Assembly (NCBI GenBank): GCA_005502445.1
Contig: SCPB01000019.1
Location: 1 to 42,251, forward strand
Length of the DNA stretch: 42,251 bases
Reading direction: 5' to 3'
Source: Microbacteriaceae bacterium X2B
Lineage (GTDB): Bacteria; Actinomycetota; Actinomycetes; Actinomycetales; Microbacteriaceae
Positions 5,424-22,062 of the stretch are shown in pieces. The position numbers and the translations under genes were made by a program. Every line of letters begins with the position of its first letter. Position 1 is the first letter of the stretch. The notes beneath the pieces are model-generated. The model had not been told where the DNA came from and did no database searches. It saw only the letters and a list, made by a program, of their open reading frames with translations.

Positions 5424-6845
5424 TCAGCACTCCACGTAGTTGACGGCGAGGCCGCCCTCGCTCGTCTCCTTGTACTTGCGCGACATGTCGTCGCCGGTCT
5501 GCCGCATGGTCTGCACGACGGTGTCGAAGCTGATGAGGTGCGTGCCGTCGCCGTGCATGGCCATGCGCGCCGCGGCGACGGCCTTGCCCGCGCCGATTGC
5601 GTTGCGTTCGATGCAGGGCAGCTGCACGAGGCCGGCGACGGGGTCGCACGTGAGGCCGAGGGAGTGCTCCATGGCGATCTCGGCGGCATTCTCGATCTGC
5701 TCGCTCGAGCCGCCGAGCAGGTGGGTGAATCCGGCGGCGGCCATCGAGGCGGCCGAGCCGACCTCGCCCTGGCAGCCGGCCTCGGCGCCCGAGATGCTCG
5801 CGTTGTTCTTGATGAGGGCGCCCATGGCCCCCGCGACGAGCAGGAAGTCCTCGGCCGCGGCATCCCTATCGGTGATCGGGAGGACGTCGAGCGCGTACCG
5901 CAGCACGGCCGGGATGATGCCCGCCGCCCCGTTCGTCGGCGCGGTGACGACGCGGCCGCCCGCGGCGTTCTCCTCGTTGACGGCGATCGCGTAGGCCTGC
6001 AGCCACTCGAGGGTGCAGTCGCGCGTGTGCGCCTCGTCGATGTCGCGCAGCTGTCCGGCCATCGCGGCCGCGCGGCGCGGAACGTTGAGCCCGCCGGGCA
6101 GGGTCCCGCGGGTCTCGAGCCCGGCGTCGATGCACGCGTTCATGGCGTGCCAGATGCGGCGCAGGGCGGCGCTCGACTCGTCGGGGGTGCGCAGCGCCTC
6201 CTCGTTGGCGCGCGCCAGCTGGGCGATCGTGAGGCCGTTCGCGCGGCAGAGGCGCAGGAGCTCGGCGGCGGTGTCGTGCGGGTACGGGACTCGCGGGGCC
6301 GCGTCGTGCGCGTCGCCGGCGCGCTCGGAGGCGGGCGCGCTCTCCTGCTCGACGAATCCTCCGCCGATCGAGTAGTAGGTCTCCTCCGCGACGACCGCGC
6401 CGGCCGCGTCGCGGGCGATGAGGGTCAGGGCGTTGGGATGCCGCGGCTTGAGCTCGCGCGGGGCGAAGATCAGCCAGCCGGCGTCGATCGCGATGTCATG
6501 GCGGCCGTTGAGCATGAGGCGCCCCTCGGTGTCGGCGCGCTCGCGGACGGCGACGACGTCGTCGCGCACGACGTGCTCGACCTCGTGGCCGGCGAGCCCG
6601 GCGAGGACGGCATCGGGGGTCCCGTGGCCGACGCCCGTGGAGCCGAGCGAGCCGAAGAGGGTGCACTGGACGCTGCTCACCTTGCTCAGCTCGGCGTCGC
6701 TGAGCGTGCTGACGAAGGCCTTCGCGGCGCGGAGCGGACCGACCGTGTGGGAGCTCGAGGGGCCGATGCCGACGCGGAACAGGTCGTGCACCGAGATGAA
6801 CTCGCGCTCGGCGAGCGGCAGGCTGACCGCCACGGGGATGCTCAC
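5424..6845 (-). CDS. sdaA: L-serine ammonia-lyase (iron-sulfur dependent)
   Basis: Deaminates L-serine to pyruvate and ammonia using a [4Fe-4S] cluster. The 473-residue chain carries the beta domain first ([19 protein letters not shown]) and the alpha domain after ([30 protein letters not shown]). Cysteines at about 358, 400 and 411 have the same spacing (42 and 11) as the cluster ligands of E. coli SdaA. The last residue is Cys (NYVEC), matching the tail-in-active-site cysteine known from the Legionella enzyme. The GTG at 6845 (VSIPVAV) is the most sensible start. It is transcribed toward glmU but separated from the SRPBCC gene by 66 bases. Confidence 0.93.
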
Positions 6846-7023
6846 GAGGGCTCCGATCGGTGGGGCCGGGTCACGGCCGAGGAGTGGAGCGACCCGATCA
6901 GCTCGCGCTGCGCGGGTCGGCGGCGCGCACGACGCCCCTCGTGCGGGCATCGTCGAGCCACACGTCCATTGTGTCGCGGATCGTTCGGGGGCGCACGACC
7001 TTGCGCGGGTGCGCGTCGGGGTC
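6846..7023. other. Gap between sdaA and the dehydrogenase stump
   Basis: This stretch should carry the sdaA promoter, but I see no convincing -35/-10 pair. A short minus-strand frame ending at 6898 (with a run reading TMDVWLDDARTRGVV) looks protein-like, yet I recognise no family and it continues under the dehydrogenase fragment. It may be decayed coding DNA. Confidence 0.3.
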
Positions 7024-7323
7024 ATGCGGCGGTCGGGCCAGCTCAACGCCGCCGTCCCCTGCGACACCGAGGTCATCGAGTTCGACTCCCCGTGGGGCGC
7101 GCAGCACTCGGGTGTGCTCGAGAACTTCGCGCAGGCGGTGCTGAACGGCACACCCCTGCTCGCCCCCGACTCGGACGGCATGAAGGGCGTGCGCCTGGCC
7201 AACGCCATCCTCCTCTCGAGCTGGACGTGCGCCGAGCTCTCGCTCGACTTTGACGAGGACGAACTCCTGGGGATGCTCAACGAGCGCATCCGCGGCGAGG
7301 GCAAGTTCGCCGAGCGGGTGTAA
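7024..7323 (+). pseudogene. C-terminal remnant of a Gfo/Idh/MocA family oxidoreductase
   Basis: About 99 codons match the C-terminal end of Gfo/Idh/MocA sugar dehydrogenases: EFDSPWGAQHSGVLENFAQA, LNGTPLLAPDSDGMKGVRLA, then a helical tail ending GEGKFAERV. The family is normally 330-390 residues with an N-terminal Rossmann domain (GxGxxG). Nothing of that domain is visible in any frame upstream, where sdaA begins within about 180 bases. I therefore read it as a gene truncated by deletion or by the rearrangement that brought sdaA next to it. It marks the left edge of the accessory island. Confidence 0.7.
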
Positions 7324-7463: not shown

Positions 7464-8531
7464 ATGAACGATGATCACGTCTCCGGAGGGCTCCCCGGCG
7501 AATCCCAGGACCCGCTCTACGTGGCATTTGACCGCGCCCGCACTCGCGCTGAAGCCGCCATGGCTGCGGCGCTCGAAGCACAGTCCGCAGCGCTGAGCGC
7601 ACAGGCGAGCGCAGAGCAAGCGGTCGCGGACTACACGGAAGCGGCACGGGCGCTCGGAATCGACGTCGACAACGACATGGAGTTCGCGAACAGCCCCGAC
7701 GTGACGGACGGCCCTGAGCAGGCACTGCCCGAGTTCGAGCAAGCGATGTCGGAACTCGAAGACGAGATCGAATCGATGAAGGCACAGATCGAAGAGAGCC
7801 GGGCGCAGATCGAAGAGAGCCGGAATGCACGTGGCGCGTCCTTGAGGAACGACTCAATGGAACACGCGAGCTTGGAAGAGCTGCTTGGCCGCCTTCCCAT
7901 CAACGACGAAGCACTCGATCGGTACACCGAACGAACGGGCCGAGAGGTGTGGGAGTTCGAGGACTCGGACTGGGAGCTCGCGCGGGAACCGTTCACCCTG
8001 CAGCACTTGGCTCGCGCGTTGAGGACATCCATTGAGGCGTCGGAAGAAGTCTTCGCCGCGCGCACTGCCGACGGCGCACCTGAATTCCTGGGCGGCGGTG
8101 AGAATTCCGCCGAGTGGGCGGACCTCGAAATGAGGGTCGCCCTCTTGCTGATCGTCTACGGCAGCACGGAACGAGATGTCGATCTGAAGCTCGGGGAAGA
8201 CGTGGAGGAGAGCGCCCTGGAGATCACCCAGTTCGCCGGTTCCGACGCCACTCCGGAGCTCACCGTGTGGTGGTCAGGGGTGTGGGATGCCGACGCAAGC
8301 ACCGTCGAGCAACTCGCGGCCGATGTCACTTCCATGACGGGGTTGGAGCCCCGCTTCCGAGACGTCGACGGATGGGAGTTCCTGGTGGAGGGTCCACAAT
8401 CACTCGTCGCCACCGTGGCCGTCGCCCTTCTCCGAGCGATGGATGCGGATCCCACTAAAAACCGACTCCCAGAGTTATACAACCCGGGCATGGCTGCCTT
8501 GATGCAGTTCGTGAGCGCAGAGAAAGAATGA
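7464..8531 (+). CDS. Unrecognised acidic coiled-coil protein coupled to the SNF2 helicase
   Basis: A 355-residue protein that I cannot assign to a family. Residues about 20-62 are an Ala-rich helix. Residues about 92-122 form a predicted coiled coil with a perfect heptad duplication, AQIEESR twice (residues 107-120, encoded by tandem 21-bp units at 7782-7823). The middle (about 125-200) is acidic with Trp-rich segments (EVWEFEDSDWELARE). The last 120 residues look globular, with TPELTVWWSGVWDAD and a VATVAVALLRAMD helix. No catalytic motif, signal peptide or membrane segment is visible. Its stop overlaps the next start as ATGA (8528-8531), so it is translationally coupled to the SNF2 helicase and probably its partner. 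Confidence 0.75.
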   Translation: MNDDHVSGGLPGESQDPLYVAFDRARTRAEAAMAAALEAQSAALSAQASAEQAVADYTEAARALGIDVDNDMEFANSPDVTDGPEQALPEFEQAMSELEDEIESMKAQIEESRAQIEESRNARGASLRNDSMEHASLEELLGRLPINDEALDRYTERTGREVWEFEDSDWELAREPFTLQHLARALRTSIEASEEVFAARTADGAPEFLGGGENSAEWADLEMRVALLLIVYGSTERDVDLKLGEDVEESALEITQFAGSDATPELTVWWSGVWDADASTVEQLAADVTSMTGLEPRFRDVDGWEFLVEGPQSLVATVAVALLRAMDADPTKNRLPELYNPGMAALMQFVSAEKE

Positions 8532-11197
8532 AGCGAAACGAGCGCGCCGCTGCACAAGTCGTCATCGATGACATCTCGGCGTGGGTAGAGCAAGCGGCCC
8601 AGATACTCTCGCACCGGGAGGCCGTCAGGGATCGGGCGGACCTGGCATCGCGAGCTCTCGGCTCACGGATCCTCGACGTTTCCGTCAGAGGCAGTCGGCG
8701 CTGGCGTGTTCTCCCGCTCCGAGCGACTGATGCTGAAGCGCTGGAGGCGATCGCCAGGCGCACAAGGTTGCCGCTGCTGGACGAGACATCCGCCTCCATC
8801 CTGACGCGGTTGAGCACCGATGTGGCACGGTCGCTCGAGCTGGCCCGGCCTGGTGTGAGCACCTGGCGGGCATTCCGCAGTCGTTCGGTCAGAGAGTCTG
8901 CCCAATCGGCATTGGAGTTCCTCCAGGACTTTCACGGGTGGGCTGGCGAGGCGAGGCTCGCTGAAACACTGGCTGGTCTCGACGCTCGCACCGCTAGCGT
9001 GAAGAGACCAGCACTGCGCGACGCGCTGAGCGCTGACGTCGGATTCTCGTCCGAAATTCCAGACGCAGGGAATGCCTCGATCATCGACGCGTCGAAGCTG
9101 TCAAGTTTGACTCCGTCGGTGTCGCGAATCGAGGAAACCCTCGCGCATGAGAAGCGCGATCGCCAGGCTGCTGTCGATGCCGGGCTCGCGCTGCGGCGCG
9201 CGGAGACGAACGCCATGGTCGCCAACATGCCTGTCGAGAAATTGAAGGCCACGACCCGTCAGCGTCTGCGCATTCAGCCGCTCACCGACGCGGGCCTCAA
9301 GACCGTCATGGACGTGGTCGAGAACGAGTACATGCTGAGCGACCTGGACGGCATCGGCGACAAGACTGCATATCGGCTCTGGGGCGCAGCCCAGACGATC
9401 TGGAATGCGACCTTTGAAGAGATGCCGGTCAGAGTCGACGTCTCTAAGCGAACCGGCGAGGCCGGCACGCTCCTGAGAGCCCTGGCCGCGTGGGATGCCA
9501 CGCGAGCGATGCGCAATGCCACTGCCGATCTGGCGAGAGTGGAAGCGCTCGCACCTCTTTCTCGCAGTCTCGACGTCGGTGTCGAAGAACTGGCCGTCTT
9601 CGAGGTGGCCGCGACCGCGGAAGACCTGATCGCTGATGTGCGGAAGCTTGCCGAGCGCGCCGAGACACTGCGTCTCGCATCGGATCAAACGGGCGGCGAT
9701 CCATGGGCTGACTTTCTTGAACGGCCGGCGGACTACTTCACGATGCTGAGCGAGCTGGGCTTTCTGTTGGAGGACCAGAAGGCGGTTGAGGGCGACCTTC
9801 CCGACGAGGTCATCGAGAAGGTGCGCCGATTCGAGCTGTCCGCTGAACTGCTCAACGTCTCGCTCCGCGGCTATCAGGCGTTCGGGGCGAAGTTCGCTCT
9901 CGTGCAGAGAAAGGTCATCATCGGCGACGAGATGGGGCTCGGCAAGACCATCGAGGCGCTGGCCGTTATCGCGCACATCAGCCAGAAGGGCGCAGCCCAC
10001 TCCCTCGTGGTGTGCCCAGCCGCCGTGGTGACGAACTGGGTTCGGGAGGTTCAAGCCAAGTCGTCCCTGCAAGCTCATCGCCTTCACGGACCGGCCCGCG
10101 AACAGTCGCTGAAAGCTTGGGTGCGGCTCGGCGGGGTCGCCGTGACGACGTTCGAGTCCCTTGGCTGGTTCCACGGGTCCGCAACCGGCGTCGGCGAGGT
10201 GGGCTGCGTGGTGGTCGACGAAGCGCACTACATCAAGAATCCCGATGCCCTGCGCAGCTGGCGCACGAGCAAACTCATCGATGCGGCTGACTACGCCGTG
10301 CTTCTCACGGGAACACCTCTCGAGAACCGGCTCGAAGAGTTCCGCACCCTTGTTCGCTACGTGCGACCGAATCTCGTCGTCGACGCGCACGAGTTCCTTC
10401 CCCGACAGTTCCGCCAGCAGGTCGCTCCGGTGTACCTGCGCCGCAATCAAGAGGATGTGCTGACGGAGCTGCCTGAACTGGTCGAAGTGGACGAGTGGCT
10501 TCCGCTCTCCCGCTCCGACGAGAGGCGCTACCGAGAGGCAGTGGGCAGCGGCAACTTCGCGGCCATGCGCCAGGCCGCGATGGTGACCGGTCAGGACTCG
10601 ACCAAACTCGGACGACTGTGCGAGATCGTGGAAGAGGCCGAGGACAACGGACGCAAGGTCATCGTGTTCTCGCACTTCCTGGACGTGCTCGGGGTGGTGC
10701 GAGACGCACTCCCGGGCAAGGTGTTCGGGCCCCTCACCGGAAGCGTTCCGGCCGTCAAGCGTCAGCAGCTCGTGGACGAGTTCAGCGCCGCTAAGGGCGG
10801 GGCTGTGCTGGTGTCACAGATCATCGCTGGCGGCGTCGGCCTGAACATTCAGGCCGCTTCGGTCGTGATCATCACTGAGCCTCAGCTCAAGCCGACGACC
10901 GAATGGCAAGCCATCGCGCGCGCTCGCCGGATGGGGCAGCTGGAATCCGTCCAGGTTCACAGGCTCCTGTCCGAGGTCGGCGTGGATAAGCGCGTCACCG
11001 AGATACTCGAGCGCAAGCGTGCGCTCTTCGCCGAGTTCGCCGCGGTCAGCGAAACTGCGGACCACGCTCCGGAGGCCCTCGACGTCAGCGAGGCCGAACT
11101 GGTGCGCGAGGTGGTCGCAGCCGAACGCGAACGTCTCTTCGGCTCCTTGTCCGCACGGGAACCGTCGCCCCCTGCCGACGAGGCGGAAGCGATCTAG
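8528..11197 (+). CDS. SNF2-family DNA helicase/translocase with helix-hairpin-helix
   Basis: 889 residues. The C-terminal half is a SNF2 ATPase: Walker A GDEMGLGKT (466-474), DEAH (564-567), motif III LLTGTPLENR, and motif VI EWQAIARARRMGQ (792-804). The N-terminal 430 residues are not a standard domain. Around residues 245-290 there is a helix-hairpin-helix signature (LSDLDGIGDKTAYRLW), a DNA-backbone grip, and the rest is helical. SNF2 proteins in DISARM (DrmD) and related systems move on double-stranded DNA; by analogy this one may scan invading DNA. It is coupled to the upstream 355-residue protein. Its TAG stop shares the CTAG at 11194-11197 with the stop of the convergent DUF499 gene. 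Confidence 0.9.
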   Translation: MKRNERAAAQVVIDDISAWVEQAAQILSHREAVRDRADLASRALGSRILDVSVRGSRRWRVLPLRATDAEALEAIARRTRLPLLDETSASILTRLSTDVARSLELARPGVSTWRAFRSRSVRESAQSALEFLQDFHGWAGEARLAETLAGLDARTASVKRPALRDALSADVGFSSEIPDAGNASIIDASKLSSLTPSVSRIEETLAHEKRDRQAAVDAGLALRRAETNAMVANMPVEKLKATTRQRLRIQPLTDAGLKTVMDVVENEYMLSDLDGIGDKTAYRLWGAAQTIWNATFEEMPVRVDVSKRTGEAGTLLRALAAWDATRAMRNATADLARVEALAPLSRSLDVGVEELAVFEVAATAEDLIADVRKLAERAETLRLASDQTGGDPWADFLERPADYFTMLSELGFLLEDQKAVEGDLPDEVIEKVRRFELSAELLNVSLRGYQAFGAKFALVQRKVIIGDEMGLGKTIEALAVIAHISQKGAAHSLVVCPAAVVTNWVREVQAKSSLQAHRLHGPAREQSLKAWVRLGGVAVTTFESLGWFHGSATGVGEVGCVVVDEAHYIKNPDALRSWRTSKLIDAADYAVLLTGTPLENRLEEFRTLVRYVRPNLVVDAHEFLPRQFRQQVAPVYLRRNQEDVLTELPELVEVDEWLPLSRSDERRYREAVGSGNFAAMRQAAMVTGQDSTKLGRLCEIVEEAEDNGRKVIVFSHFLDVLGVVRDALPGKVFGPLTGSVPAVKRQQLVDEFSAAKGGAVLVSQIIAGGVGLNIQAASVVIITEPQLKPTTEWQAIARARRMGQLESVQVHRLLSEVGVDKRVTEILERKRALFAEFAAVSETADHAPEALDVSEAELVREVVAAERERLFGSLSAREPSPPADEAEAI

Positions 11198-14100
11198 TCC
11201 TGTTCGAAAGCGTTCGTGCTGAACTTCAGCGTGGAGGCGTTCTCACGGATGGTCCTGACCTGCTGCTCGGTGAACCCACTCGGGGAGACCGCATCGACGG
11301 AGAGCGATATGGAGACGTCAGCGCCTGCCGCCACGAGGTTCGCCAGCACCTCTTGGGCCACCTTCGCGAAGTCTCCGGAGTAGCGTTCTGCGCTGATCGA
11401 GACGCTGCCGACGTATCGCCTGAGAGGAGCCCTCTTCGGCGACACCTCCGTCTGTGGCGTCTCGGACGATCCCGAGCCCGACGTGCTCGCCTTGGGAGCA
11501 TCGGTATCCGTCGCCTCCGGGCTCGGTACCTCGCTCACCCTCTGCGCCTCGGCAACCTCGGGCTTGACGATGAGAGATGCGTCCGTGAGAGGAGATCTGC
11601 CCGCTTCGTGCGGAAGCCACAGGCCGAGATACCGGCCGGATGCAGAATCGAAGCTGTCCGCTACTGCGAAGCCTTCCGCTTGCCACAGCAGCGGCTGGTT
11701 GTCGATGGCGTCGATAAGCACGTCACGTGACCGCAGGCGAGGCATGTACGGGTACTGCGCGTAGAGACCCCACAGGGCAGCGATCGAGACGTGTCCGTCT
11801 GACCAGGCTGCGGGCACCTTCGATTCCAATGCGAGTCGAATCGATCGTGCGGCGTGCTCGACGCTGTAGGTTCCTGCGCTACCGAGCTTCTTGGCGACCT
11901 TTTCGGCGAGGGTGCCTGCCTGCCCGTCGACCTTGATCTCCTCGAGGGTGAACGGCGAGCCGGGGTCAGGGGCGACCGGGTTGAGGATCCACTGGTAGGT
12001 CAGGGAGAGTCGGTCGTTCAGCGTGTGGCTGAACTGCTCGCGCTTCTCTCCGGCCTGTGCCAGCTGCTGGGGAGTCAGGTTGAGCTCGTTGGACTTGGCG
12101 ACGATCTCATCCCATGCCAGGTACGAGCGGGTCGTCTGGTCGAGCTCAGCCAGCCTGTCCTCATCCGGTGCAAGGAACACGACCATGTTCCGGTAGGTGC
12201 GGTTGGCGGTGCCCTTGCGTTCGGTGGCCTGCTTGGCGAACTCAGATGCCGGCGAGGCGTCTTTGCGACGCTTATGCGCATAGCGTGGGTGCAAGATCAC
12301 CAGCCGAGCCTGGTCGGTATCCGGGATGTCACCAGAGTCGACGGGTCCGGCGTGCACGCCCAGGAAGTCCGACTTCGCACGCTCCTCCGTGCGCAGCCGC
12401 TTCACGATTTCCGCCCAGACGTCTTCCTGGTGGAGTGCTTCGGCCGCGTCTTTGGCCCGACGCGTGATGTTCGCCTCGGTGTCGTACCAGTGCTTGCCGG
12501 CGCTCGAGTAGTAGTAGGTGGTCCGGTCGCTGAGTGCTGCGAGCGCGGTGTGGAAGTTGCCCACGACGTCACCGGGCACTGCTGCTCCGAGGAACACCCG
12601 CTGCGTGTCGATTCCCTTATGCGCGGTGCCAATCGTGGGTGCTGCGCCGAAGAAGACCGTGCGGGCGAGACGCTTCGTCACGGAGCGCTGTCCCAGTACG
12701 GGCTTCTCGTTGTCAATGCGGGCCGGCTCGGAGTTGGCGCCGTCGACGTCGGCGTCGATGACTGCCTTCCACGAGTCCTGCAGGTACTGCGTGAGTTCGG
12801 AGTTGACGCGCGCGACCGACATCGGCACCGAGCCCGGAAGGATCAAGGGTGCCTGGTCGTCGCCCGCCCATAGTGCATGAATTACCTCGTTCATTAGTCG
12901 GAGGACGCCGCGCGTGCGCTGGAAGCGCTCCAGTGAGGACCAGTCTTCGTAGAGACGATCGAAGAGTTCGGGGTGCAGCGGGTAGGTTTCGCTGATCCGC
13001 CGCGCGTATTGCGGGTCGCGCGCCTCTTTCGGGAACTCCGCAGCGTTGGCGCGATAGAAGTCACTGAAGCTCTTTGCGGTCGAGCCGATCTGTGCCAGAG
13101 CGTCGGCGTTCTCCATCTCGAACAGGCGCTGCTTGACGATTCGGTAGGCCTCGTCTGCGGATGCAGGCCGCCACTGGTCCGCCACACGTCGCACGACATT
13201 CTGCAGTCGCTTGAGGGCTTCCTGCCCGTTGGACCCGCCCACCTCTTCGTCGTGCCCGACGATGAAGCCGTTCGAGTCGTCGCCGTCGTGGGACGCCGGA
13301 ATCGAGATGGCCAGAAGCACCCCGGGCGTCGACTTGACGGCCTCGGTCAGTGACTGCGCGAAGGTGAACTGCGTGTCGAAGGTGCCGCCGGCGAGATCGT
13401 CCCGCCCGTAAAGTTGCCGGGCATAGGCCACCCACTCATCGACCAGAATGACGGCCGGCGCGTAACGCGCAAGCAACTCGTGGAGGACGCCCCCCGGGTT
13501 GGTGCGTGCGGCGTCGTGCTCGGCGAGCATCGCGTATCCTTCGGCGCCGCCGAGCTGCCAGGCCAGTTCGCCCCAGAGCGTGTTGATCCGGACGTCGCCG
13601 TGGTCTTCGCCCTGCGGAGCGAGATGGTTGCCGACGAGCGCAACTCGCCGCGCAGAGATGCCTGGCGCCGGATATCCCGACGCGGTGAGAACCTCCTGGG
13701 TCTCTTGAGGAAAGCCTTCAAGCGCGAGGCCGCCGGCCAAGTGCCACAAGGCGAGCATGGAGTGGGTCTTGCCACCGCCGAAGTTGGTCTGCAGGTTGAT
13801 GACGGGCGAAGCGTTCGGGTCACCAGCCAGCCGACGAACAGCGCGGTCCACGAGATCGCGAAGACCTTCGGTCAGGTAGGTGCGAGCGAAGAACTCGGTG
13901 GGGTTGGAGTACTCCCCGGCTGCGCCTGCCTCGTCTCGCGCGACTTTGTAGAGATCTGCCGCGAACTCGGACGCGTGGAAGTTGCCGGTGGCGACTTCAT
14001 CGCGGGGCTTGAGCACCTGCCTCCACGGCACAAGGCCGGCAGCGCCCGGCATGACGGTGGACTGCTTGAGTGATTTGGCGTCCTGCTTCGCCATCACCAG

Positions 14101-14541
14101 CCGACGGAGTTCGAGTCGGATCTTGTCGACCTTGTCGGCTGCGTAGGGCTGTCCGACGGCGACGAGGAGCTGGCGAGCCTCGTCGAGTGAGCGAAGCGTG
14201 GCGTCGTCGTCGAACGGCTCGTTGTGGGCCCAGTCGTTCCGTGTTTCTCGAAGCAGGCTGATGTAGGCCTTGTCGCTGCGGCTCAGCAGACCGTCAAAGG
14301 GGCGCCAGCCCGCTTTCACGCGGCTGGTGATCGGTTCGGAGAGCATGCGCAGCTGAACCTGGGGGTCGCGCCGACTGTATTCCCGCGCACCTTGTCCCCG
14401 ATCGGCATCGGCCAAACGGACAACATCCGACCAATCCGAGTCGCCGATCTGAGGTGCGAGGGTCTCAGCGATGAAGTGGTCAAGCGCTTCGGCGAGCACT
14501 TCGAACATCTTGCCGATACGGTCACGATTAGTGGTTGCCAT
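11194..14541 (-). CDS. DUF499 family AAA-like ATPase with N-terminal Swt1-like HEPN domain
   Basis: 1115 residues, a typical length for DUF499 proteins of anti-phage loci. Residues 1-125 resemble the Swt1-type HEPN domain, with the R-x4-H signature RNDWAH at 101-106, the catalytic pattern of HEPN ribonucleases. The ATPase has Walker A NFGGGKTHS (253-261, Lys258) and Walker B ILVDEWVAY with Asp368-Glu369. A Ser/Thr/Pro/Glu-rich linker (about 1000-1050) precedes a C-terminal segment typical of the family (PSGFTEQQVRTIRENAS). The ATG at 14541 has a GGAGGA site 5-6 bases upstream. It is the second gene after the methylase on the minus strand, 92 bases apart. In the helicase-methylase-ATPase system it would be the ATPase. 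Confidence 0.9.
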   Translation of the reverse strand: MATTNRDRIGKMFEVLAEALDHFIAETLAPQIGDSDWSDVVRLADADRGQGAREYSRRDPQVQLRMLSEPITSRVKAGWRPFDGLLSRSDKAYISLLRETRNDWAHNEPFDDDATLRSLDEARQLLVAVGQPYAADKVDKIRLELRRLVMAKQDAKSLKQSTVMPGAAGLVPWRQVLKPRDEVATGNFHASEFAADLYKVARDEAGAAGEYSNPTEFFARTYLTEGLRDLVDRAVRRLAGDPNASPVINLQTNFGGGKTHSMLALWHLAGGLALEGFPQETQEVLTASGYPAPGISARRVALVGNHLAPQGEDHGDVRINTLWGELAWQLGGAEGYAMLAEHDAARTNPGGVLHELLARYAPAVILVDEWVAYARQLYGRDDLAGGTFDTQFTFAQSLTEAVKSTPGVLLAISIPASHDGDDSNGFIVGHDEEVGGSNGQEALKRLQNVVRRVADQWRPASADEAYRIVKQRLFEMENADALAQIGSTAKSFSDFYRANAAEFPKEARDPQYARRISETYPLHPELFDRLYEDWSSLERFQRTRGVLRLMNEVIHALWAGDDQAPLILPGSVPMSVARVNSELTQYLQDSWKAVIDADVDGANSEPARIDNEKPVLGQRSVTKRLARTVFFGAAPTIGTAHKGIDTQRVFLGAAVPGDVVGNFHTALAALSDRTTYYYSSAGKHWYDTEANITRRAKDAAEALHQEDVWAEIVKRLRTEERAKSDFLGVHAGPVDSGDIPDTDQARLVILHPRYAHKRRKDASPASEFAKQATERKGTANRTYRNMVVFLAPDEDRLAELDQTTRSYLAWDEIVAKSNELNLTPQQLAQAGEKREQFSHTLNDRLSLTYQWILNPVAPDPGSPFTLEEIKVDGQAGTLAEKVAKKLGSAGTYSVEHAARSIRLALESKVPAAWSDGHVSIAALWGLYAQYPYMPRLRSRDVLIDAIDNQPLLWQAEGFAVADSFDSASGRYLGLWLPHEAGRSPLTDASLIVKPEVAEAQRVSEVPSPEATDTDAPKASTSGSGSSETPQTEVSPKRAPLRRYVGSVSISAERYSGDFAKVAQEVLANLVAAGADVSISLSVDAVSPSGFTEQQVRTIRENASTLKFSTNAFEQD

Positions 14542-14575
14542 GTTTTCCTCCGGTTCCCGAGGCTAGCCAGACACA

Positions 14576-14606
14576 ACGACAATCCCGGCCCATGCTGGGG
14601 CGTCGT
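14576..14606. other. Hairpin in the methylase-DUF499 intergenic gap
   Basis: ACGAC (14576-14580) pairs with GTCGT (14602-14606), and CCCGGC (14584-14589) pairs with GCTGGG (14594-14599) around a CCAT loop, with one G-U pair. On the minus strand it follows the methylase stop and precedes the DUF499 ribosome site. It could lower downstream expression or protect the upstream message. Confidence 0.35.
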
Positions 14607-14633
14607 AGCGAAGAGTGCGCGACTCCAGGTAAA

Positions 14634-17498
14634 TCAGACGTCGAGTGAATCGAAGTCGAACATGCCAGCCTCCGATTCCGGCGCCGCGGCGATGTTGCGC
14701 CCAGCGTCCAGGATGTCGCCCCACGAGGACGCGATGGCGTTGAACGAGAGCGCATCCTTCGTCCAGCCATTCTTCTCCGCCACCTGGAACAGGAGATACG
14801 CAAGCTCTTTCACGAGGTCGAGGTCGACCGCACCGTCGCTTCTCTGAGTCGCGTCGCGGAGGAACTTTCCGGCGGCCGGGACACCCTCCGTGTCCAGAAT
14901 GCGGATCGCGTGGTGGAGTGCTTCCCAGGCAGACGTCGACGCATCACCGAGCACGTCATAGTCGTCCGGCAGCTCAGACGGCCGATAGACCTGAACCTTG
15001 CCTCCTCGGGCGGAAAGGACTCCAGAGCGTTCCATAGCTGATACGGCCGTCCCGCGGGCTCGGGCAAGATCATCTGCCTCACCGAACGGGGCCGCACTGT
15101 AGCCGTGCCCCCGGTACCAGGCCAGAGCAAAGCGGGTAGGTGGATCGAAGTCGCCTTCCTGCTCTGTGAGGAGCTCGTCCAGAACCTCGTTGATGCGGGC
15201 CAACGCCGACCGGACCGTCATCTCGGTGCCGTCGGACTCGATCACCTTTGCATACCGCGAGAACACAGCCATGCCAGGCCCAATGGCCGACTGCGGCAGG
15301 TCCACAGGGGCGATTCCGCCCTGCTGCAACTCTCTCAACGCCGGTCCCAGTTCACGCCTCATCGACGCGAGGAATCCGCGCCGATCTGTGATGGCGGCTT
15401 CGACCTCCCGCGGCCTGAGAGCGAGTACCACCGAAGATGCGAGGGCGTTCGTGCCGACACTGATCATCCGGCCACTACGTTCCGATCGGACGGGCCATGT
15501 CGCTGTGACCTGCCAGCCCGCGCTAATCATCGATCCAAGGATGGTCTCCCAACCAGTAGAGGCTTCCCCTCCTTCGTCTGTCTCTGATTGCTTGAACGCG
15601 TAATACACAGTAATCGGGAAATCATGGGGGGCAGACTTCCGAGCATTAGAGAATACATTCTCGAAGCCCGTCTCGAAAAACGCTCTAGCATTCGCAGAAC
15701 CCCCGTGTCGGTAGGGATTCGCAACCAGCTCCTCGGCCTTAGGAACAAGAAGAGTCCCGAGCAGCTCCGGATGGACATTACGCAAGCTACGACGCATCCA
15801 AACGTAATAAAAGTCACTGAGATCCGAATAGCCGATGTTGTCGTAGTAAGGGGGGTCGGTCGAGATCAAATATCCGTCCAGATCACGAGTGGCAGCATCA
15901 GCCTGAGACACTTTGCCGTTCCCGATTGGAAGTGATTCGAGTGCGCGCGTAACCCAGACAATGCTCCATCCAATGTTACCAGGACCCCATTGAAAGGGAT
16001 TAGCTTCCGCGAAGTCCCAGACCATAGGCAAAGCCTGGCGACCAAAAGCATCAGTGACGCTTTCCTTGGAAGGTGCTGAATTCCACCGCGCAAGAGAGCA
16101 ATTTATGGAGGTAACACGGTCTGTCGCGAGTCCCAGATACGTTGCCACAACATCGGCATACGCCAAAGCACCACGGCCTCCCGCTTCAAGCGCGATACCG
16201 TCGCTCATTCCGGCATTGCGCGCGTCAACGCGCACTCGCTCACGGACTTCACCAACAAGATCACTGAGGGTCGTCAGCGCAACAAGTTGTCGATTCGTGA
16301 AAAGATCGGCGAATTCGGTCAAGCCGTAGGCGGGTGGCGAAAACCATCGGGGGTTATCTGCGATCGTCCCCGCTGGCACATCAGTGGGGCGGTGCACGTT
16401 GGCCGCGGCGATTTGCTCGTCGGAAGGCGGCACATAAATGCGGGTACGGTTGCCTTCTGCGACGACCGCGATGAGGTGAGCTCCCAGCCGGCCAGCGACA
16501 CCCTCCGCTCGGATATGGGACATCGAAACAGCAGATGCACATGCGACGCACCTAGCGCCAATGCGTCCTGAAATTGTCCCGTCGTCGCTTTTCGAAGGAC
16601 CCTTGCTTGGATCGGTCCCAATTCCATATCGAACCGCTCCGGACGCGAGGTACGGCACGACGTAAGCTTCCTTGCCTTTTTTCTTTCCGAGCCACCAGGA
16701 TCGGACGAGAGGCATTTCGATACCGCATGCAGGGTTGGAGCAGATGACGGTGCGGGCCCAAACCCACGCAACGACCGTCGCTTCGCCCCCGCCGGGAAGT
16801 CTTGCTTTGGGGTAAAGGTGGCCGTTTCGGCTTTGGGCCTGTTCGCGCACCCAGTCACCGTAGCGACGCACGTCTTCCGCGAGTCCCGTCGCATTCGGCC
16901 AGTAATTTCTTTGGCCGCCCGCTTCGGGAAAGACTGGGCCGACGCCATTAAATCTCGAAGGGAAATCGATAAGCGCCTTATTTATCAGGACGGCGACGGG
17001 GTTCAGATCGCTTGCGTGCGCCGACAGCCCGAGGCGCTGAGCCTCAAGGGGGATTGTGCCGCCTCCAGCGAAAGGATCGAGGATCGCTGGCGGCGCACCG
17101 TTCGTGCTGCGCATGATCTCCGCTCGAACTTCTCCTAAAAGAGCCTCGTCCGCCAGGTTGTCCCAGTTCACCATGCGAGTGATCAAGTCGAATAGTCGTT
17201 GCCGCTCCTGCTTCACACGATGCTCGGCCCAGCCATCGGCATCTTCATACCCCTTGTCGACTGCCTCCTGCCGGTACTGCTCGACGAAGTTGCTGGGGTC
17301 GTCGACGAGCTGCGCGAAGAGCACCGCGCGAGCAGTTGCGAGTGGCCGACGCGCCCACCACAGGTGCAGTGTGCTCGGGTGTCCATGACGAATGGACTTC
17401 TCGCGCGCCGACTGCGCGTTGATCTCCTCGAGGGGCAGAGAGACCTCGATCAGCTTGCGCTTGAGCATTGGTGCCTTTCTCCGCGGGGCGTCAGACAT
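14634..17498 (-). CDS. DUF1156 zinc-ribbon adenine/cytosine DNA methyltransferase
   Basis: 954 residues. The N-terminal DUF1156 block is clear (KLIEVSLPLEEINAQSAREK, then HGHPSTLHLWWARRPLATAR). SAM motif I is DPFAGGGT at 141-148 and catalytic motif IV DPPY at 548-551, so it is an amino-methyltransferase (N6-adenine or N4-cytosine). A zinc ribbon is formed by Cys253, Cys258, Cys317 and Cys320. In the anti-phage family it marks host DNA. A second ATG at 17468 (MLKRKLIEV) has a better AAAGG ribosome site and may be the true start. The stretch at about 15560-16980 (residues about 170-645, carrying the zinc ribbon and motif IV) is visibly richer in A/T than both gene ends. Confidence 0.92.
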   Translation of the reverse strand: MSDAPRRKAPMLKRKLIEVSLPLEEINAQSAREKSIRHGHPSTLHLWWARRPLATARAVLFAQLVDDPSNFVEQYRQEAVDKGYEDADGWAEHRVKQERQRLFDLITRMVNWDNLADEALLGEVRAEIMRSTNGAPPAILDPFAGGGTIPLEAQRLGLSAHASDLNPVAVLINKALIDFPSRFNGVGPVFPEAGGQRNYWPNATGLAEDVRRYGDWVREQAQSRNGHLYPKARLPGGGEATVVAWVWARTVICSNPACGIEMPLVRSWWLGKKKGKEAYVVPYLASGAVRYGIGTDPSKGPSKSDDGTISGRIGARCVACASAVSMSHIRAEGVAGRLGAHLIAVVAEGNRTRIYVPPSDEQIAAANVHRPTDVPAGTIADNPRWFSPPAYGLTEFADLFTNRQLVALTTLSDLVGEVRERVRVDARNAGMSDGIALEAGGRGALAYADVVATYLGLATDRVTSINCSLARWNSAPSKESVTDAFGRQALPMVWDFAEANPFQWGPGNIGWSIVWVTRALESLPIGNGKVSQADAATRDLDGYLISTDPPYYDNIGYSDLSDFYYVWMRRSLRNVHPELLGTLLVPKAEELVANPYRHGGSANARAFFETGFENVFSNARKSAPHDFPITVYYAFKQSETDEGGEASTGWETILGSMISAGWQVTATWPVRSERSGRMISVGTNALASSVVLALRPREVEAAITDRRGFLASMRRELGPALRELQQGGIAPVDLPQSAIGPGMAVFSRYAKVIESDGTEMTVRSALARINEVLDELLTEQEGDFDPPTRFALAWYRGHGYSAAPFGEADDLARARGTAVSAMERSGVLSARGGKVQVYRPSELPDDYDVLGDASTSAWEALHHAIRILDTEGVPAAGKFLRDATQRSDGAVDLDLVKELAYLLFQVAEKNGWTKDALSFNAIASSWGDILDAGRNIAAAPESEAGMFDFDSLDV

Positions 17499-17621
17499 CG
17501 CCTACCGCTGCGTTTGAGACTACTGATGGCATGGGATAAGCGAGTCCTACACGGCAAGAAGTCTCGAATGTCTCCTTGGCTCAATACGCTCGATGCGACC
17601 GGACAACAGTGAGGGAATACC
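17499..17621. promoter_or_regulatory. Divergent intergenic region, methylase / DUF3883 helicase
   Basis: These 123 bases separate the divergent starts of the methylase and the DUF3883 helicase and must hold promoters for both. A possible plus-strand pair is TTGAGA, 17 bases, TAAGCG, which has a poor -10. A good ribosome site, GAGGGA, lies 5 bases before the helicase GTG at 17622. I see no clear operator palindrome. Confidence 0.4.
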
Positions 17622-20600
17622 GTGCGACTTGAAGACATCGCTGGCACAGCAAGGCTTGCCGGAGTTCTGCCCGACCGCCCGGTGACGGTACTGGGCGCTC
17701 AGATGCATGGCAAGGACGCGCTCGAGGTGACCTTCAGAGACGACAACGGTGCGCTTGGTCAGGTCGTGCTCTACCGCCACGACGAGGAGCGAATCAGTGC
17801 ACACCTCGAGAGCGGGCGCCCGTTCGACGCCGACCCGCGGGATTTCCGGCTCGCGGCTGAAGCGCAACGCATCATGCTGGCCGGCCTTCACGACCCGATG
17901 CTCGCTGTGGCAACCAGCGACGTGCAGCCGCTCCCCCACCAGATTCGGGCGGTCTACGGCGAATTGCTCCCGCGCACACCGCTACGGTTCCTCCTCGCGG
18001 ACGACCCAGGCGCCGGAAAGACAATCATGGCTGGGCTATACATCAAGGAGCTCATCCTGAGGGACGACGTCCGCTCCTGTCTGATCGTCGCCCCCGGTGG
18101 CCTGGTGGAGCAGTGGCAGGACGAGCTCTCGATGAAGTTCGGCCTCGACTTCGAGATTCTCGCGCCGGGGGCAGAGGATCTCGCGCCCGGCCGGACCGTC
18201 TTCGATCAGAAGCCGCTTCTCATCGCGCGCATGGACCAGTTGGCCCGCAACGAGATGCTCATCGAGCAGATCGAGCAGTCCGAATTCGACCTCGTCGTCG
18301 TTGACGAGGCGCATCGGATGAGCGCGACGTGGTTCAGCGGAGAACTGAAGTCGTCGAAGCGATTCCAGCTCGGCGAGTTACTGAGCGAGCGCGCCCGACA
18401 TTTCCTGCTCATGACGGCTACGCCGCACAACGGTAAGGAAGAGGATTTCCAGACATTCCTCTCCCTTCTGGACCGGGATCGGTTCGTGGGCCCCGGTGAC
18501 AAGCGAGCGCAGTCCGGCACCGTCGACGGCATCATGCGGCGCATGGTCAAGGAGCGGCTGGTCAAGTTCGACGGCACTCCGCTGTTCCCACCTCGGATCG
18601 CCGAGACCGCGATGTATCGCCTGTCGTACGACGAGCAGCACCTCTATGAAGAGGTCACCGAGTACGTGCGCAACGGCATGAATCTTGCCGATCGGCTCGA
18701 CGGCAAGCGAAAGAACACGGTCGGATTTGCGCTCACAGTTCTGCAGCGTCGCCTCGCCTCCAGCCCGGAGGCGATCCACCACTCACTCCGCCGGCGTGCC
18801 GAACGACTCGAGCGGGTCCGCACCGACTTGCTCGCGGGAATCGCGTCGTTGCCGGACGCCGAGGCGCCAGCAGCTCTGGTGGATGACGACCCCGACTACG
18901 AGGAGTTCGACGCAGAAGAACTCGAGAAGGCGGAGGACGAGCTGGTTGACGCCGCGACCGCCGCTCGCACTGCCGCCGAACTCGAGACGGAGATCCTCGA
19001 TCTCAAGAGACTGACGGCGATCGCCGCTCAGTTGCTTGCGAGCCAGCAAGACGTGAAGTGGCGCGAGCTGCGCGAGGTCATCGAGAGTCAGGTGCTCGTT
19101 CGTGACGACGGAGCTCCGCGGAAGATCATCATCTTCACCGAGCACCGCGATACGCTCAACTACCTCGAGCGGCGCATTGTGTCACTGTTGGGCAAGCGCG
19201 AACCGGTTGTGGTGATTCACGGCGCGGTGCCCCGATACGAGCGTCGCCGAATCACCGCCGAATTCACGAGCAACCCCGACGTGCAGATCCTCATCGCCAC
19301 CGACGCCGCCGGCGAGGGACTCAACCTGCAGGCCGCACATCTGATGGTGAATTACGACCTGCCTTGGAACCCGAATCGCATCGAGCAGCGATTCGGACGC
19401 ATCCACCGCATCGGGCAGACCGAGGTCTGCCGCCTCTGGAACCTCGTCGCCGAGGACACGCGCGAAGGCGAGGTGTTCATCCGACTGCTCGACAAGATCG
19501 AGGAACAGCGCGCCGCCTATGACGGCGAGATCTTCAACGTTCTCGGAACCTCCCTCGGCGACATGAACCTCACGAAGGTGTTGCGCGAGGCCATCCGTTA
19601 CGGAGAGCTGCCAGAGGTGAAGGCGAAGATGTGGGAGGTCATCGACGACGGAGTGGCGGCCGGGCTCCAGGAGCTGCTCGAGGAGGAGGCCCTCGCCGCC
19701 GACACCTTCGACGCATCGGACCTGGAGCAACTGCGCCGTCAGATGGAGGACGCGAAGGCGAAGCGCCTCCAGCCCCACTTCATCAGAGATGCCTTCATCG
19801 AAGCGTTCACTCGTCTCGGAGGGCGGATCGAGCGACGCGAAAAGGGGCGGTATGAGATCGGCCACGTGCCCGCCGTCATTCGTGAGCGCGCCGGGCGAGC
19901 CCCGGTGTCGCGACGGTACGAGCGCGTCACGTTCGACGTGGCGACCATCGAGGGTCACAACCTGAGCCGTGCCGAACTGCTCGCGCCCGGGCATCCGCTT
20001 CACGACGCCACGCTGAATCTGGTGATCGACCAGTACGGGCGCGCTCTCGATCGGGGCGCGGTGCTTGTTGCGGACGCCGTGACCGCGCCCACGCTCCTCG
20101 TCGGTGTGCTCAATGAAGTGAAGGACTCCACCGGCGCAACGGTGGGCAAACGATTCGGATACTCGTTCGTAGACGAGTCAGGAGCGATCCGCGAGGCGGG
20201 CCCCGCGCCATATCTCGACTTCGCCCCGGCGACGGTCGACCAGCGTTCCGCAGGGGCAGGGCTACCCTGGCTGGCACAGAGCGAGCGCGACGCCGTCTCG
20301 TGGGTGATCGCAGAGCAGCTGCCGACATTCTCGGCGGAGGTGACTTTGCGCCGCACTGCCGAGTTCGAGCGAGTGCGCGAACGAGTGAGCACCAGGCTCA
20401 CGCGTGAAGTTAACCGCCTCGAGACCGAGGCGCTTAAGGCCGATGCGAACGCCGCGACGGGGAAGAAGGTGCGGGTCTCCAGCGATCACCTGCGTCGGCT
20501 GGCCAACGACCTTCTCGCGCGCCGCGAGAGCCGTCTCACCCTCATCGAGCGCCAGCTTTCCATGTCGCCGATCACGCCTCAGATCACGGCCATCGCACTC

Positions 20601-21056
20601 GTGCTGCCGAAGCTGCACGAGGACGAACGGGGGGCGGAGGCGCCACAGCATGCGGTCAACACGACGGCCGTCGAACGACGAGGCGTCGATGCCGTGCTTG
20701 CCGCGGAGCGTGCTCTCGGTCGTTCGCCTGAAGAGCAGGCGCACAACAACCCCGGATTCGACGTGCTCTCTCGAATGCCGAACGGTGCGGGACTTCGGGT
20801 TGAGGTCAAGGCCCGGATCGACGGTGGTGACACCTTCTCCATCACTAGAACCGAAGTCTTGCTGGCCCTCAACGCGAGCCCCGACCATCGACTCGCCCTC
20901 GTGCGCGTCAGCAAAGAGGGGCCTCACCTCGACGAGGTTCGATACATCGCCGATGCCTTCAATGGCTTCGAGCCGGTGCAATTCGAAGACTTCGACGTCG
21001 AGGCGCTGACGCTCAACTTCGCGGACTGGTGGGCTAGGGGTTCGGCGCCGTTCTGA
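17622..21056 (+). CDS. DEAH helicase with C-terminal DUF3883 nuclease-like domain
   Basis: 1144 residues, starting at GTG 17622. This is a superfamily 2 SNF2/RapA-like helicase: Walker A DDPGAGKT (127-134), DEAH (228-231), LLMTATPHNGKEEDF, and motif VI QRFGRIHRIGQ (589-599). An acidic insert at about 415-450 separates the two ATPase lobes. The last 120 residues are a DUF3883 domain with a PD-(D/E)xK-like set: Glu1029, Asp1047 in NNPGFDVL, and Glu1061-Val-Lys1063 in VEVKAR. This suggests DNA cleavage or binding coupled to translocation. It is divergent from the DUF1156 methylase; the pair with DUF499 makes up the helicase-methylase-ATPase composition. Whether the nuclease-like site is active is not shown. 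Confidence 0.93.
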   Translation: MRLEDIAGTARLAGVLPDRPVTVLGAQMHGKDALEVTFRDDNGALGQVVLYRHDEERISAHLESGRPFDADPRDFRLAAEAQRIMLAGLHDPMLAVATSDVQPLPHQIRAVYGELLPRTPLRFLLADDPGAGKTIMAGLYIKELILRDDVRSCLIVAPGGLVEQWQDELSMKFGLDFEILAPGAEDLAPGRTVFDQKPLLIARMDQLARNEMLIEQIEQSEFDLVVVDEAHRMSATWFSGELKSSKRFQLGELLSERARHFLLMTATPHNGKEEDFQTFLSLLDRDRFVGPGDKRAQSGTVDGIMRRMVKERLVKFDGTPLFPPRIAETAMYRLSYDEQHLYEEVTEYVRNGMNLADRLDGKRKNTVGFALTVLQRRLASSPEAIHHSLRRRAERLERVRTDLLAGIASLPDAEAPAALVDDDPDYEEFDAEELEKAEDELVDAATAARTAAELETEILDLKRLTAIAAQLLASQQDVKWRELREVIESQVLVRDDGAPRKIIIFTEHRDTLNYLERRIVSLLGKREPVVVIHGAVPRYERRRITAEFTSNPDVQILIATDAAGEGLNLQAAHLMVNYDLPWNPNRIEQRFGRIHRIGQTEVCRLWNLVAEDTREGEVFIRLLDKIEEQRAAYDGEIFNVLGTSLGDMNLTKVLREAIRYGELPEVKAKMWEVIDDGVAAGLQELLEEEALAADTFDASDLEQLRRQMEDAKAKRLQPHFIRDAFIEAFTRLGGRIERREKGRYEIGHVPAVIRERAGRAPVSRRYERVTFDVATIEGHNLSRAELLAPGHPLHDATLNLVIDQYGRALDRGAVLVADAVTAPTLLVGVLNEVKDSTGATVGKRFGYSFVDESGAIREAGPAPYLDFAPATVDQRSAGAGLPWLAQSERDAVSWVIAEQLPTFSAEVTLRRTAEFERVRERVSTRLTREVNRLETEALKADANAATGKKVRVSSDHLRRLANDLLARRESRLTLIERQLSMSPITPQITAIALVLPKLHEDERGAEAPQHAVNTTAVERRGVDAVLAAERALGRSPEEQAHNNPGFDVLSRMPNGAGLRVEVKARIDGGDTFSITRTEVLLALNASPDHRLALVRVSKEGPHLDEVRYIADAFNGFEPVQFEDFDVEALTLNFADWWARGSAPF

Positions 21057-21126: not shown

Positions 21127-21354
21127 TCAGCCAAGCGAGGTCGGTCGGCTACCAGAACGATGCGGGAAGTCCCAATCGCCCCGCCACTGTTCGGTCGCTT
21201 CGAGCCAGTGCCCCACGAAGTCAGTTGCGTTGTCTGCGGAGTCGATCAGGATCGCTCTTGCCTCCGCCTCCAAAGACCGTTCGTGGAGAGCCGCGCGGGC
21301 GACGAGCGCCCGGTAGACCGATTCCGGCACGTCACGGACAATGAGATCGATCAT
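21127..21354 (-). CDS. FitA-like ribbon-helix-helix antitoxin, orphan
   Basis: 75 residues. The N-terminal IDLIVRDVPESVYRALVARA and SLEAEARAILIDSADN are the beta strand and two helices of Arc/FitA-type antitoxins. These bind their own promoter and neutralise a VapC-like PIN toxin. The ATG at 21354 has a strong GGAGGG site 6-7 bases upstream; a GTG one codon earlier is possible. The toxin gene should follow on the minus strand, at lower coordinates, but there the helicase gene ends at 21056 on the opposite strand and no PIN domain is visible. The toxin has probably been lost. The last 25 residues (GHWLEATEQWRGDWDFP) are family-typical, so the antitoxin itself looks intact. Confidence 0.75.
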   Translation of the reverse strand: MIDLIVRDVPESVYRALVARAALHERSLEAEARAILIDSADNATDFVGHWLEATEQWRGDWDFPHRSGSRPTSLG

Positions 21355-21395
21355 CACAATCCCTCCTCAGCAGCCGATGAATTGCAGATCGCCGG

Positions 21396-21467
21396 CTCCG
21401 CCTCCAGGATTCGAACCTGGGCCTAACAGCTCCAAAGGCTGTCGTGCTGCCGTTACACCAAGGCGGA
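21396..21467 (-). tRNA. tRNA-Gln (UUG anticodon)
   Basis: On the minus strand the 72-nt gene starts TCCGCCT, which pairs with AGGCGGA at the 3' end before discriminator G. The anticodon stem ACAGC/GCTGT encloses CTTTGGA, giving anticodon UUG. The T arm has GGTTCGAATCC. CCA is not encoded. Its 3' end faces the island. In many actinobacteria a tRNA-Gln lies close to glmU-prs, so it may be the insertion point that separated them here. Confidence 0.95.
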
Positions 21468-21558: not shown

Positions 21559-22062
21559 ATGACCGCCCCCGCTGATGACGTCGACCGCATCGTCGACGCG
21601 TGGCAGCGCGAGCGGCCCGACCTCGACTTCTCTCCGCTGCATGTGCTGTCGCGGCTCGGTCGCGTCGCCAAGCACCTGGATCGGGCGCGGAAGGCGGCGT
21701 TCGCGGCATCCGCGCTCGAGAGCTGGGAGTTCGACGTGCTCGCGGCCCTGCGCCGCGCCGGCTCCCCGTACGAGCTGAGCCCCACGTCATTGCTGCGCCA
21801 GACCCTCGTCTCGAGCGGCACCATGACCAACCGCATCGACCGGCTGACCGCGCGCGGCCTCGTCGAGCGGCGGACGGACCCGAACGATGGCCGCGGCATC
21901 CTGGTGCGGATGACCGAGTCGGGCCGCGAGCGGGTCGACCACGCGATCGCCGAACTCGTCGTCGCCGAGCGCGAGCTGCTCAGTGGCCTCACCCGCGCCG
22001 ACCAGGAGCGGCTCGCGAGCCTGCTGCGGACGCTCGGCGCGGACTTCGAGGGGTCGGTCTAG
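21559..22062 (+). CDS. MarR-family transcriptional regulator
   Basis: 167 residues with the winged helix-turn-helix of MarR proteins. The helices run from SALESWEFDVLAALRRAG through SPTSLLRQTLVSSGTMTNRI (recognition helix), and the wing is GLVERRTDPNDGRGILVRMT. Flanking N- and C-terminal helices serve dimerisation. The gene starts at ATG 21559, about 90 bases from and divergent to tRNA-Gln. The next gene on its right converges with it, so its target is not evident from position; MarR proteins usually control a neighbouring divergent gene or themselves. It looks like ordinary high-GC host DNA and belongs to the chromosome side of the island boundary. Confidence 0.88.
   Translation: MTAPADDVDRIVDAWQRERPDLDFSPLHVLSRLGRVAKHLDRARKAAFAASALESWEFDVLAALRRAGSPYELSPTSLLRQTLVSSGTMTNRIDRLTARGLVERRTDPNDGRGILVRMTESGRERVDHAIAELVVAERELLSGLTRADQERLASLLRTLGADFEGSV

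Follow-up and report, generated by a model that had tools for sequence, protein, structure and literature searches.

The window analysed here is a 42-kb contig (42,251 nucleotides; SCPB01000019.1, assembly GCA_005502445.1) of Microbacteriaceae bacterium X2B, a high-GC actinobacterium, and carries at positions 7464-21056 a block of five intact open reading frames (ORFs), all of them open over the coordinates given below. Three of them were assigned to the anti-phage system Hma, namely HmaC (11194..14541, minus strand, 1115 aa), HmaB (14634..17498, minus strand, 954 aa) and HmaA (17622..21056, plus strand, GTG start, 1144 aa). The other two, both on the plus strand, encode a 355-aa predicted coiled-coil protein (7464..8531) and an 889-aa SNF2-type helicase with a helix-hairpin-helix (HhH) motif (8528..11197). 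A 4-bp overlap (ATGA) joins the coiled-coil gene to the SNF2 gene, whose 3' end in turn overlaps that of the HmaC gene by 4 bp. A preliminary description had listed a DUF1156 methylase, a DUF499 ATPase, a DUF3883 helicase, a SNF2 helicase and a 355-residue protein in this block, in agreement with the ORFs and with Pfam.

The Hma-like composition of the first three genes, also proposed there, was confirmed by PADLOC, which names HmaC, HmaB and HmaA at 869, 1062 and 1256 bits, respectively, covering HmaA and HmaB nearly to full length and residues 170-1113 of HmaC. According to Pfam, HmaC consists of an N-terminal Swt1-type HEPN domain (HEPN_Swt1, residues 11-130) and a DUF499 AAA+ ATPase; the HEPN domain had been recognised correctly in the preliminary description and is to be moved from the end of the protein to its N-terminus. 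HmaB is a DUF1156 adenine methylase (94 bits), and HmaA is a RapA-like SNF2 helicase (SNF2-rel_dom, Helicase_C) with a C-terminal NOV_C/DUF3883 nuclease domain (NOV_C, 48 bits). Motor, methylase, HEPN and nuclease motifs were found by pattern, among them RNDWAH at 101 of HmaC, DPPY at 548 of HmaB and FD...EVK at 1046 of HmaA; we take these patterns to have the meanings commonly given to them. With a DUF499 ATPase bearing HEPN, a DUF1156 methylase and a Snf2 helicase bearing a C-terminal nuclease, the HmaABC set of the window is, as judged from its domains, the system named Hma in the PADLOC paper (PMC8565338) and recast as Type-1 BREX-related (BR) by Rakesh and Krishnan (2026; PMC12839542).

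The fourth protein was identified by Pfam (SNF2-rel_dom and Helicase_C), PADLOC and motif patterns. It comprises a mostly helical N-terminus (residues 1 to ~230), an HhH region (~236-298) and a SNF2 motor (~430-840). The HhH was called from a motif (GIGDKTA at 275), and a weak HHH_5 match below the Pfam cut-off (E 0.0045) was obtained in one homologue among eight proteins scanned. Comparisons of a full-protein model with the PDB were filled by motor matches (model residues ~426-838). The PADLOC run that recovered HmaABC assigned this gene to cluster PDLC02852, labelled DpdE, which covers residues 3-869 at 866 bits.

The recurrence of the SNF2 gene beside Hma was followed in three sets: the best 80 of 579 SNF2 relatives in named genomes, biased towards close kin; an even sample of 394 genomes of the class; and plasmids. 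These sets overlap (several contigs belong to both the best 80 and the even sample) and are not independent, and the Fisher tests given here take no account of shared descent. In the even sample the SNF2 family was defined as the 16 loci scoring 685 bits or more together with a split gene in G079; this line was placed, once the list had been inspected, above a gap that extends to 558 bits. HmaA lies within 15 kb in 11 of these 17 loci, the window among them, versus about 0.006 expected by chance (assuming independence and 7-Mb genomes), a proximity far above chance that supports the preliminary description in part. Among genomes with only weaker SNF2 matches, 1/28 has one near HmaA (Fisher p 1.2e-5 versus 11/17); in that genome (G432) the HmaA and SNF2 genes overlap by 4 bp. 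The even sample contains 34 HmaA loci in 32 genomes, and 150 genomes of the family contain four SNF2 loci, three of them near HmaA. Hma genes occur near 53 of the best 80 SNF2 loci (HmaB or HmaC in 28, HmaA only in 25), and these counts are minima, as some loci lie at contig ends.

In 46 of the 52 loci where both were placed, HmaA and SNF2 are divergently oriented; for the 37 loci in which both starts could be set, the spacer between them measures 118-198 bp. On the SNF2 side, 14 aligned spacers share an invariant T-A-A and, two bases on, T-T, a promoter-like pattern; a near-constant divergent promoter region is thus observed in these relatives, and the linkage is retained in five gene orders. 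Carriage of all four genes is observed in the two plasmids, out of 19 records with HmaA, that also contain the SNF2 family, both with the order HmaC-HmaB-HmaA and SNF2 divergent from HmaA; one of the two is plasmid p232 of Arthrobacter sp. Rue61a. When HmaA is 57-58% identical a SNF2 match is present in 2/4 plasmids, and at 51.2% or less in 0/15 (p 0.035), several of these 15 records being near-copies; the remaining two plasmids of the former group encode DUF1156 and a HEPN or DUF499 gene with no SNF2 match. A scan of viral contigs (best 80 of 596) gave one SNF2 match of 36%, the rest reaching ~26-31% over the motor, and phage records gave a single match (37.5% over 69% of the protein). The contig of G545, which starts inside the last HmaC codons, carries a TrwC relaxase, a further sign of mobility.

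Based on this evidence, the block is read here, with modest confidence, as an Hma (Type-1 BREX-related) anti-phage system that was acquired horizontally and is accompanied by an accessory second motor, which would partner HmaA. The choice of HmaA among the Hma proteins derives from trees and neighbourhoods. In a HmaA tree of 78 rows (quick method, no bootstrap, most rows fetched via SNF2) 56 of 57 SNF2-linked rows fall within one actinobacterial clade of 66 rows, with support 100. The even sample provides the fair count of this observed linkage to one clade: 11/21 HmaA of the clade are linked to SNF2 versus 1/13 outside it (p 0.011), G189 being absent from the tree and placed by identity. Adjacent HmaB is missing from 6 of the 11 linked loci (G464, G456, G307, G220, G249 and G352), and five of these six genomes have no HmaB anywhere at E 1e-80. 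Whether the SNF2 family lies mostly apart from DUF1156 and DUF499 genes, a point raised in the preliminary description, received a mixed answer, with HmaB adjacent in 5/17 loci and HmaA near in 11/17. Other companions were sought in 20 of the 25 HmaA-only loci, with 112 of their 113 listed neighbours covered; among the Pfam matches listed (25 of 112 families, ordered by members), transposases were the top family with at most 4 members and no other family exceeded 3, and among the best 25 of 86 PADLOC matches one family had 2 members and the others were singletons. A larger conserved system around the HmaA-SNF2 pairs was rejected, given that nothing beyond transposases recurs. Since more than half of the linked loci have no adjacent HmaB and no other companion recurs, the constant partner of SNF2 is HmaA, not HmaB.

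The same figures could be taken to mean that HmaA and SNF2 form a two-motor defence system of their own, which HmaB and HmaC joined or left, the window being a merger of two systems. In line with this, HmaB is missing in 7 of the 12 HmaA loci with SNF2 versus 3 of the 22 without it (p 0.015, all 34 loci of the even sample), besides the HmaB-less genomes mentioned above. However, the contrast is not significant inside the clade (6/11 versus 2/10, p 0.18), HmaA and HmaC vary together where both occur, and an effector is not evident in nine pairs that seem to lack the nuclease end. We consider this merger unlikely. These nine loci come from Streptomyces and Actinomadura; their HmaA can be aligned no further than residue ~995-1020, and the apparent lack of the NOV_C end also fits poorly with the preferred reading, in which SNF2 would direct a nuclease. 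The HmaA proteins in question (L009, L010, L011, L015, L017, L021, L049, L057 and L063; ~991-1063 aa) are found beside SNF2 with no HmaB or HmaC nearby.

Other observations weigh against a partnership of SNF2 with HmaA, and some of them favour a free-standing defence or repair motor that resides in defence islands and shares mobile elements with Hma in the absence of any joint function. The best 80 SNF2 loci include 27 with no Hma genes found nearby, some of these lying at contig ends, and conserved non-Hma neighbourhoods exist in Serinicoccus, Arcanobacterium and Micromonospora. Six of the 17 even-sample loci are unlinked: G298, G421, G509 and G486 have no HmaA at E 1e-150 (the first two on short contigs), and G378 and G079 have it elsewhere in the genome. 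Conversely, 10/21 HmaA of the clade have no SNF2 gene nearby. In a SNF2 tree of 88 rows linkage changes ~10 times and the deepest branches are mostly solo, so the link has arisen or disappeared repeatedly. Compared with its four nearest relatives, the HmaA of the window shows 75-79% identity and SNF2 just 53-57%, indicating that the two were not inherited strictly together. Solo SNF2 copies adjoin other defence helicases in the three loci checked, and further defence motors may thus be partners of this family; the neighbours are a DrmD-like helicase and a type IIG enzyme in L012, a DruE-like helicase in L044 and a UvrD-type helicase, 1 bp away, in L083. Against a free-standing motor stand the near-restriction of its partner to one HmaA clade, the prevailing divergent order with a near-fixed spacer and the 25 of 80 loci in which HmaA is the sole nearby Hma gene and no other neighbour recurs. 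Altogether, a motor independent of Hma is somewhat unlikely, and Hma with an accessory motor partnering HmaA is retained as the preferred reading.

The SNF2 N-terminus diverges rapidly, as observed in a comparison of all pairs among 57 linked loci binned by HmaA identity. At HmaA identities of 0.80-0.90 the median identity is 0.84 for HmaC (143 pairs), 0.66 for HmaB, 0.72 for the SNF2 motor (312 pairs) and 0.31 for SNF2 residues 1-230 (277 pairs); at 0.90-0.95 the corresponding medians are 0.90, 0.66, 0.83 and 0.56. Seven pairs picked by hand for low SNF2 identity at HmaA 0.92-0.95, a selection that exaggerates the effect, show N-terminal blocks of 0.19-0.33, motor blocks of 0.50-0.85 and HmaC blocks of 0.88-1.00 except one at 0.62. 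Such fast change beside steadier HmaA and HmaC suggests that the N-terminus could be the sensing part of the protein, as in an arms race. A merely unconstrained domain would give equal divergence, and the effect is milder among close loci, with the median of 0.56 given above rising to 0.65 when HmaA exceeds 0.95 and values of 0.74-0.85 in eight Mycobacterium pairs. In three Arthrobacter proteins (L069, L071 and L075) the N-terminus contains C-x4-C-x3-H motifs at 112-residue steps, from which it seems that different modules may be mounted on one motor; these arrays are likely zinc-binding repeats ahead of it.

HmaB is variable as well: in near-identical HmaA pairs its median identity is 0.65-0.66, with HmaA and HmaC above 0.90, as if methylation specificity were exchanged. 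The idea that SNF2 is a specificity subunit exchanged together with HmaB was discarded, since the correlation of their identities is weak (r 0.27, 28 loci), compared with r 0.53 for HmaA-SNF2 and r 0.56 for HmaA-HmaB. Genes of 613-619 aa or ~560 aa were also noticed separating HmaB from HmaC or, where HmaC is cut off, next to HmaB (L013, L016, L024, L038, L059 and L081; L025, L026 and L084), and at this position plasmid NZ_CP025961.1 has an annotated DUF262 gene.

The 355-aa protein encoded upstream of SNF2 is an orphan, predicted as a coiled-coil hairpin followed by a possible alpha+beta end, and its single-sequence fold is of low confidence (mean pLDDT 48). It could constitute with SNF2 a two-gene unit of adaptor and motor, a separate defence candidate, as the ATGA overlap, the similarly low GC content at third codon positions (GC3; 0.75 and 0.77 for the coiled-coil and SNF2 genes) and a coding score per codon close to that of the SNF2 gene (weak, both genes being in the training set) would allow. 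Nevertheless, no credible relative was encountered: there was none beyond the window's own genome in the 394 class genomes at E 0.001, one match over 64 residues in the 150 family genomes (E 0.0015), none in plasmids, phages or viral contigs, and none by tblastn at E 0.001 in 84 SNF2 loci, the large collection of named-genome contigs lying outside this search. Furthermore, four loci sharing the convergent SNF2-to-HmaC order (L007, L082, L234 and G545) have no such gene upstream of SNF2, and we regard the two-gene unit as very unlikely. Descent of the coiled-coil protein from a split SNF2 N-terminus was rejected too, since the long N-termini of L069, L071, L075, L081 and L084 show no significant similarity to this protein. 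A small gene is called between the convergent HmaC and SNF2 genes in L007 and L082, and the coiled-coil gene itself contains a 21-bp tandem duplication (7781-7823). The claim that the SNF2 pair belongs to the same system as Hma is supported for SNF2 by its recurrence beside HmaA and unsupported for the coiled-coil protein, whose place as anything more than a local add-on is unproven; in place of a five-gene system, the data support Hma plus a recurrent second motor.

The block as a whole looks foreign by composition, given its low sliding-window GC (0.59-0.65 versus 0.67-0.75 outside) and the low GC3 of its five genes (0.65-0.80 versus 0.84-0.98 for all but one of the ten flanking genes measured, the exception being a 77-codon gene at 21127-21357 with 0.71). 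On the right the variable region is bordered by a tRNA-Gln gene (TTG; 21394..21467, minus strand), and, among the matches listed, those to the tRNA-Gln/MarR flank start at one and the same position in 19 of the 20 other genus genomes compared; the GlmU-like/SdaA flank on the other side has a strong match in 19 of 20 as well. The insertion site (window 5424-6845 to 21559-22062) lies between a serine dehydratase gene and tRNA-Gln/MarR. In the stretches inspected the flanks adjoin directly in G543, G544 and G550, and other genomes of the genus carry different cargo, up to ~50 kb in G537. Of 21 genomes from the genus, the window's own included, one has HmaA and two have the SNF2 protein (6 of the 21 being less than 90% complete). 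With conserved flanks, variable cargo and HmaA and SNF2 rare within the genus, the block amounts to a patchily distributed insert in a much-used site. Integration through tRNA att repeats was set aside as not shown, since no direct repeat of at least 16 nt (12-nt seed) joins the tRNA-Gln end to the left edge and no integrase is present among ten flanking genes scanned. The 77-codon gene (minus strand) encodes a FitA-like ribbon-helix-helix antitoxin with no adjacent toxin gene called. At the left edge of the insert, 7009-7323 (plus strand) encodes a 104-aa C-terminal piece of a GFO/IDH/MocA oxidoreductase, matched by a 388-aa protein in L221.

Read as an acquired Hma system with an accessory motor, the copy in the window would serve in defence, and we infer the following steps, with the roles of HmaB, HmaC and HmaA taken from the published model (PMC12839542). 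HmaB would most likely methylate host DNA, HmaC would assemble on DNA and hold its HEPN RNase as a last resort, and HmaA would translocate on DNA and cut it by its C-terminal nuclease. The SNF2/HhH protein, as partner of HmaA, would grip duplex DNA and move along it, its fast-diverging N-terminus sensing something that varies between invaders; in this way it would load, activate or direct HmaA. It can further be conjectured, improbable as we hold it to be, that HmaA and SNF2/HhH make up an actinobacterial two-motor anti-phage module in which an exchangeable SNF2 N-terminus recognises the invader and no methylation is required, HmaB and HmaC being optional additions for self-marking and as a suicide RNase. 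Hma/BR systems are widespread, Type-1 being reported in 2446 taxa (PMC12839542), and a second motor that accompanies one HmaA clade and whose N-terminus diverges rapidly is a concrete sensor candidate for how they discriminate self from invader and are switched on. Natural experiments are available in plasmids with and without SNF2 and in HmaA-SNF2 pairs with and without the methylase. The naming of the flanking SNF2 gene as DpdE by the best PADLOC model suggests, in addition, that a defence finder can split such a unit.

In comparison with known systems, the window shares with Hma/Type-1 BR the HEPN-DUF499 protein, the DUF1156 methylase and the helicase-nuclease fusion. As described in PMC12839542, Type-1 BR has no components other than ATPase, methylase and helicase; the helicase, further characterised by an N-terminal TUDOR domain, is fused to a C-terminal REase in 79% of taxa, and 1370 of 2446 taxa show a HEPN fusion. 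The Hma neighbourhood had been noted earlier with HEPN (PMC3710099) and EVE domains (PMC7641849). The window differs by its SNF2/HhH gene, which in relatives can stay with HmaA in the absence of adjacent HmaB and HmaC. The absence of DUF3780 remarked on in the preliminary description is right for the five proteins, but this family marks Type-2 BR systems (PMC12839542); neither DUF3780 nor an HKD nuclease appears in the Pfam matches of the five proteins or the ten flanking genes, and the NCBIfam models DUF499_antiphage and DUF1156_antiphage gave 163 of 1200 and 104 of 1000 bits. For Type-3 BREX and Type-3 BR, PglZ is likewise missing from the Pfam matches of these fifteen genes and from the PADLOC matches listed for them. 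ARMADA, as described in PMC12458937, is similar in combining three different helicases, one of them BrxHII/RapA-like, with a methylase, whereas its other motors are YprA-like and UvrD-like, and DUF499 and the SNF2/HhH protein are not in that description.

The SNF2 family is already in the PADLOC library as PDLC02852, yet the DpdE label of this cluster looks like a misfiling, since the SNF2 protein scores 70 bits on the NCBI model NF041062 (cut-off 500) and no non-helicase Dpd family is among the matches listed for the five proteins. It also differs from DrmD of DISARM, with 52 of 610 bits on NF038317 and 73 of 950 on NF038318; the PADLOC DrmD cluster PDLC02627 matches residues 226-853 at 447 bits, and neither DrmB nor DrmC is among the matches listed. 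Hma-embedded candidates (HECs) were reportedly presented by Payne et al. in 2024. Like the SNF2 gene, HECs are extra genes tied to Hma loci, but according to PMC12988326 they are embedded in Hma, whereas the SNF2 gene lies at its flank; the best 25 of 33 PADLOC matches for the SNF2 protein include no HEC model. The suggestion of a possibly undescribed variant agrees, as regards the SNF2 addition, with the literature searched, in which no description of such a partner was found, the supplements, the rest of PMC12839542 and Payne 2024 lying outside its scope. Thus, Hma itself is already known, and the recurrent, HmaA-centred second motor is new within that literature.

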